Source: Hypericibacter adhaerens (GTDB lineage Bacteria; Pseudomonadota; Alphaproteobacteria; Dongiales; Dongiaceae). From it: a stretch of DNA of 64,000 bases. Where the stretch lies: NCBI RefSeq assembly GCF_008728835.1, contig NZ_CP042582.1:186001-250000 (forward strand), given 5' to 3'. The notes below the pieces were generated by a model that saw only the letters and a list, made by a program, of their open reading frames with translations, searched no databases and was not told where the DNA came from. The translations under genes and the position numbers were made by a program. Shown one piece after another: positions 49,850 to 55,201 of the stretch (positions within the stretch are counted from its first letter, which is position 1; each line of letters begins with the position of its first letter).

Positions 49850-49925
<76 letters not shown>

Positions 49926-49933
49926 TTCTCGAA

Positions 49934-49962
49934 AGGCCCGGCGGCATCCCGCCGGGCCTTTT
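49934..49962 (+). terminator. Rho-independent terminator of tRNA-Ala
   Basis: AGGCCCGGCGG (49934-49944) pairs perfectly with CCGCCGGGCCT (49949-49959) around CATC. TTTT follows from 49959. Confidence 0.92.
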
Positions 49963-50135
49963 GCTTCACTAACACTCTCAAAAGAATGCTCTTTCCCCGT
50001 GACAACGCTCCGAAGTCCCTAGCGCCTAAGTTTGGATTCGCCAAGAGCCGAAAAATTATCAATCAAGGCCATGGTGGCGCCGAGTCGCGCTGAGTAGACT
50101 TAGTTCGAGTCGACGGCCAACCTGGGGAAAATCGG

Positions 50136-51695
50136 ATGGCGATGTCTTCTGCCGCGCCCCTGCTCAGGGAGGTGGGTGCCGCGAGCGACGCCTTATCTCT
50201 TGAGAATAGGCGCACCCCCGAGTTGATCATCGGCGTGGTTGGCCCAATTGGCTCTGGTGTGACGTACACCGCCAGAGCGCTCTCCACGATTCTTGAGAAT
50301 GACTTTGGTTACACCCCCTTCATGTGCAAAGCGTCAGCCCTCATCGCGGAAGCCTGTCCGCTCATTGGGCAGACCTACAACAGTGAGCTGAAGGGTCGGG
50401 AACGCATCGAACGCCTGCAGACGCTTGGCAATGAGCTTCGTACGAAGTTCGGACCCAAGTATCTCGCTGAAAAGGCCGTCGAGAAGATTGCGACCATCCG
50501 CTTGGATAGAGGGTACAAGAACAAAGAAGACCCGACGGTTCCGCTGCCCCAGCGATTCGTTCACATAATCGACTCACTAAAGAATCCAGCGGAAGTGCGC
50601 CTTTTGCGGGATGTGTATGGGGATATGTTTTGGCTCGTTGGCGTCTTTGCTCCAAAAGAGATTCGCGAAGACCGTCTTGTAGGAAGCGGCATTCCAAGGG
50701 CGGAGCTTCCGGGTCTCATGGAGAGAGATGAGGACGAAGGCTTCGACGCTGGCCAAAAGGTTCGCGATACGATCTATGAAGCGGATTTTTTTGTAAGAAA
50801 CGATGCACCAAATGACGAGAGACTTAAACGCGCTCTGCGCCGATTTTTTGACATCTTGTTCAACTTGGGCGTCGACACCCCAACACTCGATGAAGCAGCG
50901 ATGTATACGGCAGTCTCCTCGGCTGCAAGCTCTGCGTGCCTTTCGCGTCAAGTCGGTGCCGCAATCTACTCTTCAAGCGGGGAGTTGATTGGGGTCGGGG
51001 CGAACGACGTTCCCAAGTTTGATGGCGGACTATACCGGGCGGAAGACGGTGAATTGGATAATCGATGCTTCAAGTGGGGCGGCAAGATTTGTCACAACGA
51101 CCAGCGGAAGGAAAATCTATATCAACACATCGTGCGAGAGCTAATCGATACAAAGCTATTGGATAAAAAAGTTTCATACGAAAAGGCTCGTGAGGCCCTC
51201 GCAAGAACCGATATCCGCAACTTGATCGAGTATTCACGCGCAGTCCATGCGGAGATGGAAGCGATCATCTCCGTCGCACGAGGGAATAAAGCGGGCATTA
51301 AAGGTTCAACACTGTATTGCACGACATTTCCATGTCACAGCTGCGCTCGGCATATCGTCGCCGCCGGAATAAGACGAGTGATCTATATCGAGCCATACCC
51401 AAAGAGCTTGGCAACTGAATTGCACAAAGACGCAATTTCAGTTCGAGAAACCGATGAAGGAAGATGCGTTGTCTTTCTTCAGTATGAAGGCGTTGCTCCG
51501 AAAAACATCGTCAGATTTTTTAAGCATGGGCGGAGCAGAAAATCTCAAGGCAAATTACTGATCCGTTCCCCCAAGACCGCTGACCCAATCTGCCAGCCGA
51601 TGCTCGACGGCTCGGCAACATTAGAAAAAATCGTAGTGAATAATCTCGAGGCAATGGAGGCGGCGGCTTCTACCAAGGGAGGGGACAAATCATGA
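50136..51695 (+). CDS. Anti-phage-type deoxycytidylate deaminase with N-terminal P-loop domain (AvcD-like)
   Basis: The 519-residue protein joins a P-loop kinase-like domain (about residues 28-250) to a C-terminal deoxycytidylate deaminase domain. The deaminase zinc site is complete: His371 and catalytic Glu373 in VHAEMEAI, Cys400 and Cys403 in TTFPCHSCARHI. The P-loop reads GVVGPIGSGVTYTARAL, with Val where the Walker Lys is expected. This two-domain layout matches AvcD and related anti-phage dCTP deaminases, which drain dCTP/dCMP during infection. Base composition is much lower in GC than the flanks (24 of 60 bases at 50761-50820). It follows tRNA-Ala and overlaps a small gene. Confidence 0.85.
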   Translation: MAMSSAAPLLREVGAASDALSLENRRTPELIIGVVGPIGSGVTYTARALSTILENDFGYTPFMCKASALIAEACPLIGQTYNSELKGRERIERLQTLGNELRTKFGPKYLAEKAVEKIATIRLDRGYKNKEDPTVPLPQRFVHIIDSLKNPAEVRLLRDVYGDMFWLVGVFAPKEIREDRLVGSGIPRAELPGLMERDEDEGFDAGQKVRDTIYEADFFVRNDAPNDERLKRALRRFFDILFNLGVDTPTLDEAAMYTAVSSAASSACLSRQVGAAIYSSSGELIGVGANDVPKFDGGLYRAEDGELDNRCFKWGGKICHNDQRKENLYQHIVRELIDTKLLDKKVSYEKAREALARTDIRNLIEYSRAVHAEMEAIISVARGNKAGIKGSTLYCTTFPCHSCARHIVAAGIRRVIYIEPYPKSLATELHKDAISVRETDEGRCVVFLQYEGVAPKNIVRFFKHGRSRKSQGKLLIRSPKTADPICQPMLDGSATLEKIVVNNLEAMEAAASTKGGDKS

Positions 51696-51895
51696 GCCGA
51701 AAGGAAAGAGACAAGAACGGCAATCCGCAATTGTCTCTGACGTTGTCTCCGGTGCAAAAGCCAGATACCTCAGTGACCCCAAACCGAAAAGAAGTGGTAG
51801 GGAGCGACCAGGTCGTTGACTTAAAAAGTGTGCGTCAACAGACCGTCCGGAATGTGCTGATTGGTCATTTAAGGAAGGCCGGTTTCCTGGATTAG
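51692..51895 (+). CDS. Small unknown protein coupled to the deaminase gene
   Basis: The start overlaps the deaminase stop (ATGA), indicating translational coupling. The 67-residue product is polar and basic, with no signal or membrane helix. Its N-terminal half is rich in Lys, Asn, Pro and Ser. The C-terminal part QQTVRNVLIGHLRKAGFLD could be a short helix. No family was recognised. A shared low-GC composition suggests it arrived with the deaminase. It might be a partner, inhibitor or regulator of that enzyme; no function is shown by sequence. Confidence 0.6.
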   Translation: MSRKERDKNGNPQLSLTLSPVQKPDTSVTPNRKEVVGSDQVVDLKSVRQQTVRNVLIGHLRKAGFLD

Positions 51896-51929
51896 ATTTT
51901 CGGGCTTGGATTCATCGCGGGATCAAGAT

Positions 51930-51986
51930 GATCCCGTTGCTCCGCTAGTTTCCAGGGCTCGCCGGCACCCCGCTGGGCCTTTTTTC
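51930..51986 (+). repeat. Degenerate copy of the tRNA-Ala 3' end and terminator; possible island boundary
   Basis: From GATCCCG (51930) through TTGCTCC to CCCCGCTGGGCCTTTTTT the sequence follows 49906-49962 with small gaps. The shared order is GATCCCG, TTG, CTCC, AGG, GGCA, CCCCG-type stem, GGGCCTTTT. By eye about three quarters of positions agree. It can also act as a terminator for the deaminase operon, since GGCTCGCCGG pairs with CCGCTGGGCC with one mismatch and two wobbles. Either reading is possible. Confidence 0.45.
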
Positions 51987-52076
51987 AGAGCAGCGCGCCT
52001 GGGCGTTCGGGGAGATAACGGACGGACTGGGTCGTGCGTCCAACTGGCCAAGGAAAGAAATCTTCTTTGGCGCGAG

Positions 52077-52140
52077 CTAAGGAAAGTTTCTGGGCCAAAA
52101 CTTTTCTTAGAAGGAAAACGTTGGACCGGAAGCTTTCCTA
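52077..52140. terminator. AT-rich stem-loops between convergent genes
   Basis: CTAAGGAAAG (52077-52086) pairs with CTTTTCTTAG (52101-52110), with one G-T wobble. AGGAAA just after it can pair with TTTCCT at the end (52134-52139). They lie directly after the stop of the restriction-methyltransferase gene (minus strand) and may end its transcription. Confidence 0.5.
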
Positions 52141-55005
52141 AGCCGCCCCGGCGCGGGCCTGGTTGAGGGCGAAGAGCCGCTCCAGGGCCTCCTCCTCGCC
52201 AATATCGGCGGGCCAGCCATAGGCGGCGGCCACGGCGGCATCGAGCGCCGCATGGGCCTGGGCTAGCCAGGCCGGGCGCTCGTTATAGAGGTTGGTCAGA
52301 GTCCGCTTCTTGAGAATCGCGGCCGCCTTGGCGTCCTTCGGCAGGATCCGGTCGGAGAAGCCCGGCACCACCTCCGGCACGCGCTCCACGAGGTCGGGCG
52401 GGTTGAGCCAGGCCTGCCGCAGCCGGTCGAGCTCGGCCGCGGCCTCGGCGATGGCGATCGCGCGCGGATCGTTGGCGTGGCGCGCGGCGGGGATGTTCGG
52501 TGTGAGGCCGTCGGGGAAGGGGAAGGTCTCGAAGGTTACGGTGATGTTGTACCTTCGTTGGTTGCCGGCTCCCAAACGGTTTCCCTGTGCGGTTGCCCAA
52601 ATCTCATGCAACCGCGAATGCAGTATCCCAAATGAAACATCGTCTTCGCGTGCGATCGCGTAAGTGCTGCCAACGATCACTATGCTTGGGTCAGCCCAGA
52701 CGAATATCCGATGTTCGGAACTCTCTGGCGTGACGATAAACCGTCGCAGATGAGCAATGGCTTTCCTGAGCTTGCCTCGCGGTCTTTGAAAGAGCCAATA
52801 GTTGTCTCTAACACGCTGCTCTCGAACTTTCTTTCGCTGCTCCGGGATAATCGATTCTATCCTTCGGAAGGGCTGTTCGTAGAGTTGCGCTCTTGCCTTT
52901 GGCATATCGACACCAAAATCGATCACCCAGCGATCGGATGGACGACCCAAGACATCATTAATGTCCCATAGCCGCCGCACGACATCAGAGTTGGGTCTAC
53001 TATTTGGGTTAAGCGGTTCTTCGAGCATCTTCCGGGCCTCATCCCCGGTTAGATCGAACGAGCCGGTAAGCTTTACCCCTTGAAACGCCACTTCACTATT
53101 TTCAGCAAGTCGAAGTGCGTTGACCAAAGACACTCCCGTCGTGCCGATGGGAGCAGCCAGATCGGCACCAATTGCATTCACTTTCTTGCCATTAAGCCAA
53201 CGTGCGCCTTGCCAGTCGGCAACGTCGTTGGAAGCGCACACGATTGCCACTCTGACCGCCGCTCCCTCGACAACCCACGGCTCGTTTGTCCATGCCTCAA
53301 ATATCTGGCAGACTTTGGATTGGACGATTTTGATCAATGGTTCGCGACTTGCGCCCTTCGCGATGCTCTTAGTGCCTACAAGACCGAATCTCATGATCTG
53401 CCTTTCCTCCAGCATCTGACGAGCTTTTTCGAACCAGTAAACGACAAAATCTGCGCGGGCCGGTACTCGCCCAAGGTAAGCGGCGCGTAGCCGTGAGACA
53501 TATTCATCACCCAGTGTTCTGAGGTGCAACCTGTCCCCCAGAAACGGCGGATTGCCGATAATGGCATCGGCCTTGGGCCATGCGGCCTCGCTGCCATCCG
53601 GATTCAGCACCGCGTCGCGACATTCGATGGTGTCGAGCGGGCGCAGGATCGGCTCGCCTGAGACGGCGAAGCCGTTGCGCCGCATCCATTGCAGCTCGCC
53701 GATCCAGACCGTGGCGCGGGCCAGCTCCGCGGCATAGGGGTTGATCTCGATCCCGTGGACCGCCTCGGGCCCGACCGCGGGAAACTGGCGCGGCAGGCCC
53801 AGCGCCTCGCACTCGATGTTGACGCGATGCTCCAGGTCCTTGAGCGCATGGAGCGCCAGATAGAGGAAGTTGCCGGAGCCGCAGGCGGGGTCGAGCACGC
53901 GAAAAGCCCGCAGGCGTTCGAGGAATTGCAGGCGCAGCTTCTCCGCGTCGTTGCGGGCCCTGGTGCCGGGGCCTTTGCCCTTGGTTTCCTTGCCGAGCAC
54001 CGCCCGCAGCTTCTCGCGCACCGCCTCCCATTCGCGCGCCAGCGGGCGCACCACCACCGGCTCGACGATCATCATGATCTTGTCGCGGTCGGTGTAATGG
54101 GCGCCGAGCTGGCTGCGCTTGTCGGGGTCGAGACCGCGCTCGAAGAGCGTGCCGAAGATCGAGGGATCGATCTCCGACCAGTCGAGCCCGGCCGCGCGCA
54201 GGCACATGTCGATCGCGGGCCGATCGAGCGGCAGCGCCTCGTCGTCGTCGAACAGCCCGCCATTGAACCAGGCCACCTTCTCGAAGCCGACACGCCCGCC
54301 CTGGCGCATGGCGGCGAAAAGGTCGTGGGCGAGGGTTCGGAACTCTGCCGGGTCCTCCTTTGCATGGGCCAGCATGCGCGAGAACATCTCCTTCGGCAGC
54401 AGCCCCTCGTCCTCGGCGAACATGCAGAAGACGAGGCGGTTGACGAAATGAGCCACGCGCTGCGGCTCGTGGCCCTGCTCGCGCAGGCGCCGGGCGAGAT
54501 CGGCGAACTCCCGGGCCGCGTCCTCGGTGACGGACTGCCGTGTCTTGCTCGGCTTCAGGCGCTCGGGGTCGGAGAAGACCGACTTGAGGACCTCGCGGAA
54601 CCTGGCATTGCGCAGGTCCTCGAGCTTGATCTCGGTGGTCTGCTTGATCGTGTTGGTCCAGTTGGTGTGGACCAGGATGCGCGCCATGTCCGAGACCACG
54701 AGGAGCGGCGGATTCTCGAGCGCCACGGCATATTGCTGGAGCTGGGCGTAGGCCTGCTGCAGGTCGCGGCCCTTGCCCTTGTATTCCCAGGCGAAGCAGC
54801 CGCGTTTCCAGACGTCGGCCCAGCCTTCCTTGCCGGTCGTCTTGGTGGCGCCGGCCTCGAAGGCGTAGCTTTCGCCGGAAGGGTCGGCCTCTGCTGGTGT
54901 GGGTTCGCCCAGCAGACGGCAGAGGTCGATGAAATGCTCCTGAGCGCCCGCCGACTCCTTGAGCGATGACGCCTTCCATTTGGCGATAAAGGCTTCCGGC
55001 GTCAT
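52138..55005 (-). CDS. MmeI-like type II (class IIL) restriction-modification enzyme
   Basis: The 955-residue protein has the single-chain MmeI layout. The N-terminal endonuclease-like part has GWADVWKRGCFAWEYKGKG, a D-(x)n-ExK pattern near residues 60-77. A helical linker follows. The N6-adenine methyltransferase has motif I VLDPACGSGNFLYLAL and motif IV IIGNPPFLGD near residue 485. A target-recognition region occupies about residues 500-820, ending in VTFETFPFPDG, then a helical C-terminus. Such enzymes methylate one strand and cut at a distance. DNA from about 52545 to 53530 is visibly poorer in GC than both ends of the gene. A methyltransferase-only or DISARM-type role is less likely because no partner genes are present. 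Confidence 0.85.
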   Translation of the reverse strand: MTPEAFIAKWKASSLKESAGAQEHFIDLCRLLGEPTPAEADPSGESYAFEAGATKTTGKEGWADVWKRGCFAWEYKGKGRDLQQAYAQLQQYAVALENPPLLVVSDMARILVHTNWTNTIKQTTEIKLEDLRNARFREVLKSVFSDPERLKPSKTRQSVTEDAAREFADLARRLREQGHEPQRVAHFVNRLVFCMFAEDEGLLPKEMFSRMLAHAKEDPAEFRTLAHDLFAAMRQGGRVGFEKVAWFNGGLFDDDEALPLDRPAIDMCLRAAGLDWSEIDPSIFGTLFERGLDPDKRSQLGAHYTDRDKIMMIVEPVVVRPLAREWEAVREKLRAVLGKETKGKGPGTRARNDAEKLRLQFLERLRAFRVLDPACGSGNFLYLALHALKDLEHRVNIECEALGLPRQFPAVGPEAVHGIEINPYAAELARATVWIGELQWMRRNGFAVSGEPILRPLDTIECRDAVLNPDGSEAAWPKADAIIGNPPFLGDRLHLRTLGDEYVSRLRAAYLGRVPARADFVVYWFEKARQMLEERQIMRFGLVGTKSIAKGASREPLIKIVQSKVCQIFEAWTNEPWVVEGAAVRVAIVCASNDVADWQGARWLNGKKVNAIGADLAAPIGTTGVSLVNALRLAENSEVAFQGVKLTGSFDLTGDEARKMLEEPLNPNSRPNSDVVRRLWDINDVLGRPSDRWVIDFGVDMPKARAQLYEQPFRRIESIIPEQRKKVREQRVRDNYWLFQRPRGKLRKAIAHLRRFIVTPESSEHRIFVWADPSIVIVGSTYAIAREDDVSFGILHSRLHEIWATAQGNRLGAGNQRRYNITVTFETFPFPDGLTPNIPAARHANDPRAIAIAEAAAELDRLRQAWLNPPDLVERVPEVVPGFSDRILPKDAKAAAILKKRTLTNLYNERPAWLAQAHAALDAAVAAAYGWPADIGEEEALERLFALNQARAGAA

Positions 55006-55201
55006 GGTCCCCCGCGGCCGGTGCCCGACTCGGCTTACCTACCCATCCCAAGGCTAGCCATGCTGTAGCAGGTCCGGCAACCCGCCAGCCCCCTGCATCT
55101 CCGCTGACAGCAATCAGCGCAGGTCGGATAATACGCAGCCAGCAACTTGGTTATTTTAGAGGTTTCTCCTCAACGCCTTGATCCGGCGGGCTTTCGAGGC
55201 C

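Follow-up and report, generated by a model that had tools for sequence, protein, structure and literature searches.

AvcID systems, also described as dCTPdeaminase or DcdV, consist of the deaminase AvcD and the RNA antitoxin AvcI, which holds the enzyme until transcription is shut off and the RNA disappears, setting it free (PMC10511110). Sensing of infection by AvcD-type enzymes is known only for such RNA-held versions (PMC10511110). Two other kinds of described system act through the sliding clamp of the replisome. Hda and HdaA, the proteins of the regulatory inactivation of DnaA, respond to the DNA-loaded clamp; clamp binding by Hda requires the hexapeptide QLSLPL, and the HdaA of Caulobacter contains QFKLPL (PMC3836487). 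The toxin–antitoxin systems SocAB and RipA, both small operons, make use of the clamp pocket, and there it is the toxin that binds the clamp (PMC12795458). The β-clamp-binding consensus given in a 2026 paper is Q-phi-x-[LM]-[FL] or Q-phi-x-[LM]-x-[FL], and QVELEF is an established motif of Pol III (PMC13254535).

Here we analyzed an avcD-like locus in a stretch of 64,000 nucleotides from Hypericibacter adhaerens (the window). The avcD gene (50136–51695, + strand) encodes 519 amino acids, and the original prediction described the product as an AvcD-like anti-phage deaminase. Profile searches bear this out: the protein scores 459.6 bits against NCBIfam NF041025 (anti-phage dCTP deaminase; curated cut-off 400), matches the PADLOC dCTPase model with E = 8e-162 and contains the Pfam PF00383 deaminase domain. 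The housekeeping dCMP deaminase ComEB gave only 41.9 bits at a cut-off of 219, so that a search against defense models, which had been suggested as a check, returned the anti-phage family and not the housekeeping enzymes. Judged by these scores, membership in the AvcD family is close to certain. The predicted zinc site is complete, with H371 and E373 in the catalytic HAE motif (51246–51254, +) and C400 and C403 as ligands in PCHSC (51330–51344, +), an instance of the PCxxC signature. The proposed P-loop-plus-deaminase layout was likewise recovered. The P-loop-like motif GPIGSGVT occupies residues 36–43 (50241–50264, +), and the model of a related protein (L066, see below) gave fold matches to adenylate-kinase-like proteins and to dCMP deaminases, consistent with a P-loop-kinase-like domain at the N-terminus in which Walker A is altered. 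The prediction was right that valine replaces the Walker lysine in GPIGSGVT, but we rejected this as a peculiarity of the present copy: since no homolog having that stretch contains the lysine, its loss is a trait of the whole family. The distribution of AvcD is patchy, with occurrences in 17 of 385 alphaproteobacterial genomes.

The gene lies on a 5.2-kb island (49967–55146) whose left neighbor, as originally noted, is a tRNA-Ala gene (GGC; 49850–49925, +). Comparison with a genome of the same genus delimits the island: there the tRNA-Ala gene and its terminator are followed by about 56 bp and then by a small-heat-shock-like gene, and the segment 49967–55146 is missing. The foreign, low-GC composition was also confirmed (52.4% GC in avcD against 67.6% in the window). 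The island holds avcD, a partner gene described below and, on the opposite strand, the MmeI-like neighbor already named in the prediction, a 955-amino-acid type IIG restriction-modification gene (52138–55005, −) recognized by its Pfam MmeI domains and by PADLOC type IIG. The suggestion of a compact defense locus therefore holds insofar as three genes fill a segment that the sibling genome lacks, but the MmeI-like gene does not belong to the system. Because no MmeI relative was found near the 70-odd avcD loci examined, we rejected it as a component and regard this member of the MmeI-family type IIG enzymes as an island neighbor.

A terminator-like hairpin with a T run (51962–51983, hairpin 51962–51976, +) ends the avcD–partner unit. 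Across 28 nt, the hairpin of the tRNA-Ala terminator (49935–49962) and the one behind the partner gene (51956–51983) show 86% likeness, which gives the impression of a terminator duplicated along with the cassette. We rejected att repeats derived from the tRNA end, since the 3′ end of the tRNA is not copied at the right side of the island and the sole repeat is this terminator-like one after the partner gene. At the corresponding site in the same-genus genome, a transposase-like ORF lies downstream of the small-heat-shock-like gene (L130, 1876–3024); therefore, the region seems prone to insertion.

The original prediction overlooked the second gene of the operon. This ORF (51692–51895, +) overlaps the avcD stop codon in an ATGA arrangement, encodes 67 amino acids and has a Shine–Dalgarno-like sequence, GGGAGGGG, within the end of avcD (51677–51684, +). 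Its product matched nothing in Pfam, PADLOC, NCBIfam or PHROGs. AlphaFold2 predicts disorder to about residue 43, followed by a C-terminal helix at residues 44–63 (51821–51880, +) with pLDDT values above 90 over most of its length. Residues 13–18 (51728–51745, +) read QLSLTL, a putative β-sliding-clamp-binding hexapeptide that satisfies the published sequence consensus (PMC13254535).

We took avcD relatives from genome collections and compared the ORFs behind avcD. In 22 of the 72 loci the ORF immediately behind avcD is a homolog of the partner; we call these homologs type A. With a profile built on 15 downstream ORFs, six held-out downstream ORFs scored 14–34 bits and the best of 5668 decoy ORFs 8.6 bits. 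The 22 members of the final type A set, 56–74 amino acids long after trimming of their starts, mostly begin no more than 35 nt from the end of avcD and share a near-invariant Gln near residue 13 and Gly near residue 64. The closest pairs show dN values of 0.57–0.88, with dS saturated or, where measurable, at 1.3–3.8; saturation of dS at such dN values supports these ORFs as coding. When the profile was run over 385 alphaproteobacterial genomes it matched in three only, each time beside avcD. Since all three had contributed to the profile, the informative part of this result is the absence of stray copies. Searches with a 21-member partner family gave no match in PADLOC and only a chance-level one in NCBIfam (E = 0.08). 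Taken together, a conserved protein partner dedicated to AvcD is well supported for this branch of the family.

At 14 further AvcDs the place of type A is taken by a downstream protein of about 165–200 amino acids (type C), three examples of which gave no significant match in Pfam. Type C proteins, all from one AvcD clade, contain an IIDxRxxPRFD-like stretch and an N-terminal QLSLF-like motif (L024, L025, L030, L056, L070, L074 and L159–L161). In an AvcD tree of 68 rows type C forms one clade (SH-aLRT 99) and type A requires two changes. Over the whole tree the partner labels change 7 times, compared with 32 times after shuffling, and none of 200 shuffles was as low; the type of partner follows the AvcD tree. 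A downstream partner was absent from the loci examined in the clade of gammaproteobacterial and plasmid AvcDs. The AvcI systems of the literature are expected, by our own inference, to belong to this clade. The present locus resembles AvcID in its P-loop-like and dCMP/dCTP deaminase domains, in HAE plus PCxxC and in its NF041025 and PADLOC dCTPase matches, but differs in that avcD is translationally coupled to a following gene for a protein partner of about 60–75 amino acids, a gene that the plasmid and gammaproteobacterial relatives lack.

Of the 22 type A partners, 8 contain the strict clamp-binding consensus; shuffled sequences give an expectation of 0.48, and none of 4000 shuffles reached 8. 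It is also present in 4 of 14 type C N-termini, as QLSLF (twice), QLDLF and QASLF (0.56 expected; 3 of 4000 shuffles). Many type A motifs depart from the strict form, with Phe at position 4, Met at position 2 or Lys/Arg at position 2 (L011, L060, L061, L064), and a looser pattern that covers all 22 was framed post hoc, after we had viewed them. Because Phe at position 4 is so common, we examined HdaA from these hosts. A Gln-led motif of the clamp kind stands near the N-terminus in each of the 21 proteins. In five of them position 4 is Phe: QIPFDF in the genome of the window itself, QLAFDL twice, QIPFDL and QLSFDW. Hence, the Phe-4 variant is found in what is probably a genuine host clamp motif. 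The partner shares with Hda and HdaA an N-terminal clamp hexapeptide (QLSLPL in Hda, QIPFDF in the HdaA of its own genome and, putatively, QLSLTL), but instead of an AAA+ domain it has a disordered segment and one helix, and it is tied to a defense deaminase. Binding of the partner motif to the sliding clamp is hypothetical but is the reading we prefer, because two unrelated partner types share both known forms of the motif.

An out-of-sample set came from viral contigs in IMG/VR, for which the strict motif was fixed in advance of the scan. A scan with a single AvcD protein found nothing; with an alignment it found 39 loci. The motif test covered 31 viral AvcD loci, with ORFs of similar size for comparison. 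The strict motif was found in 6 of 20 viral downstream ORFs but in only 18 of the 1077 others (p = 1.8e-6). Once the set had been dereplicated at 60% identity, the counts were 4 of 16 and 15 of 699 (p = 5e-4), and since related loci are not independent these p-values are guides. The downstream motifs include QLSLTL, identical to that in the window, together with QLELDF, QLSLDF, QLELEF, QLELNF and QALLF; QLELDF and QLELEF are close to QVELEF of Pol III. By our own reading of the loci, a recognizable partner accompanies 14 of the 15 viral AvcDs nearest to the partner-bearing clades and none of the 16 nearest to the plasmid/gammaproteobacterial clade. One viral AvcD (L140) is identical to an AvcD of the partner-less clade in the discovery set.

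In one locus (L066) avcD and partner share a single reading frame, with two TGA codons read as Gly, and AlphaFold2 was used to fold the pair as one chain. The fusion alignment excluded partner-only rows, which the aligner had misplaced, and the alignment for one structure prediction omitted two rows from plasmid records. The AvcD part was well folded (pTM 0.76). The partner, at pLDDT values of 32–63, was not confidently placed on AvcD in this model, and its motif was not docked. Consequently, binding of the partner to AvcD is without structural support, and the model neither supports nor excludes it.

How might such an operon work? When active, AvcD would turn dCTP/dCMP into dUTP/dUMP and thereby starve phage DNA synthesis, as expected of its family. 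The translationally coupled 67-amino-acid protein could be an adaptor whose disordered N-terminus offers QLSLTL to the β-clamp and whose C-terminal helix most likely holds AvcD. Most likely it would act as a protein counterpart of the AvcI RNA antitoxin. AvcD would stay silent for as long as the cell has host replisomes and freshly made adaptor; phage takeover, by loss or displacement of the adaptor, would free it. Antitoxins are typically small, disordered and translationally coupled partners. For this reason, and because the AvcD enzymes studied so far are antitoxin-held (PMC10511110), we favor restraint as the role of the partner. For a two-gene anti-phage operon in which the adaptor ties AvcD to the sliding clamp, most likely through AvcI-like restraint, our confidence is evenly balanced. 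We are just as evenly divided on the broader proposal that a whole AvcD branch is replisome-coupled, with diverse partners (the unrelated types A and C at the least, plus a divergent A-like set) that share a clamp-binding motif, so that the enzyme would be gated by the clamp, or aimed at it, instead of being held by an RNA antitoxin. SocAB and RipA, likewise small operons, may be comparable in their use of the clamp pocket; their toxin binds the clamp, whereas here the candidate clamp binder is an accessory protein of a nucleotide-depleting enzyme.

The motif evidence from types A and C, from HdaA and from the viral loci is shared by a reading in which the partner binds the clamp as an activator or targeting subunit. 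AvcD would then be brought to replication forks, including those of phages that use host-type clamps, and would remove dCTP or edit cytosine pools where DNA is made. The clamp-directed toxins SocB and RipA show that toxin–antitoxin systems do exploit the pocket (PMC12795458), but a deaminase that the partner does not restrain would have to be checked by something else, and published AvcD is antitoxin-held (PMC10511110); we consider this reading unlikely. The main rival to clamp binding as such is a motif for docking on AvcD. The partner would be an ordinary protein antitoxin whose Q-L-x-[LF]-x-[LF] binds AvcD itself, and the likeness to clamp motifs would be a coincidence. The coupling within the operon, the small product with its disordered segment and single helix and the strict association with avcD all agree with this view, and docking on AvcD would explain why types A and C have a motif in common. 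What speaks against it is that the pentapeptides of type C (QLSLF, QLDLF, QASLF) and the hexapeptides of type A and relatives (QLSLTL, QLELDF) follow the two known forms of clamp motif, that the Phe-4 variants match host HdaA and that the AlphaFold2 model of L066 left the motif undocked. We find this explanation doubtful as well.

A classical type III AvcID system, with an RNA antitoxin upstream and an irrelevant ORF downstream, could draw on AvcI as the known partner in the studied systems (PMC10511110), and the 210 nt between the tRNA gene and avcD leave room for an RNA. However, the tRNA alone reached the Rfam gathering score in the upstream region, which contained no AvcI-like match, and the folding signal found there includes the tRNA terminator hairpin. 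A comparison of upstream DNA detected no conserved element, but had no power, since the gammaproteobacterial control set likewise gave none. Given that the downstream ORF has been kept as a protein across divergent hosts and is tied to AvcD phylogeny, an RNA-held system at this locus is quite improbable. Still harder to believe is a housekeeping or metabolic dCMP deaminase. The deaminase fold is shared with such enzymes (Pfam PF00383; dCMP deaminases in the PDB by fold), but the score for the defense family is clear, those for ComEB and others lie far under their cut-offs, the N-terminal domain is P-loop-kinase-like, and the gene is both patchy within the class and missing from the same site in the sibling genome.

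If clamp coupling is correct, AvcD-type enzymes would have a second, replication-based mode of triggering or targeting, and a defense system would join the clients of the sliding clamp. A function could also be given to conserved small genes that are unmodelled in the libraries used here (22 type A and 14 type C loci). Our literature search found neither a protein partner of AvcD nor a link to the clamp, an absence that weighs little because subscription papers were mostly outside its reach.

Other AvcD branches have downstream genes of their own. AvcDs with a GPIGSPLHE-like P-loop (L021, L039, L055, L141, L142, L143, L146, L149, L155) are followed by small ORFs with QLELDF, QFDLNL or QMELPL and a C-terminal helix unlike that of type A. 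The same-genus genome (G014) has its own, only distantly related AvcD at a different place (L131, 3997–5565), in a branch without type A partner. Small W-P-x-W-like ORFs occur in the clade of GPIGVDLD-type AvcDs, downstream in L018, L022, L026 and L029 and upstream in divergent orientation in L131 (3635–3826, −). On weak evidence these may perhaps be another partner type; as a general class (type B, a small W-P-x-W ORF near some AvcDs) they were rejected, since the pattern did not generalise. Finally, three NF041025-like but very divergent proteins with a GRTGSGC P-loop (L047, L048 and L049) sit on a long branch and probably form a separate subfamily.
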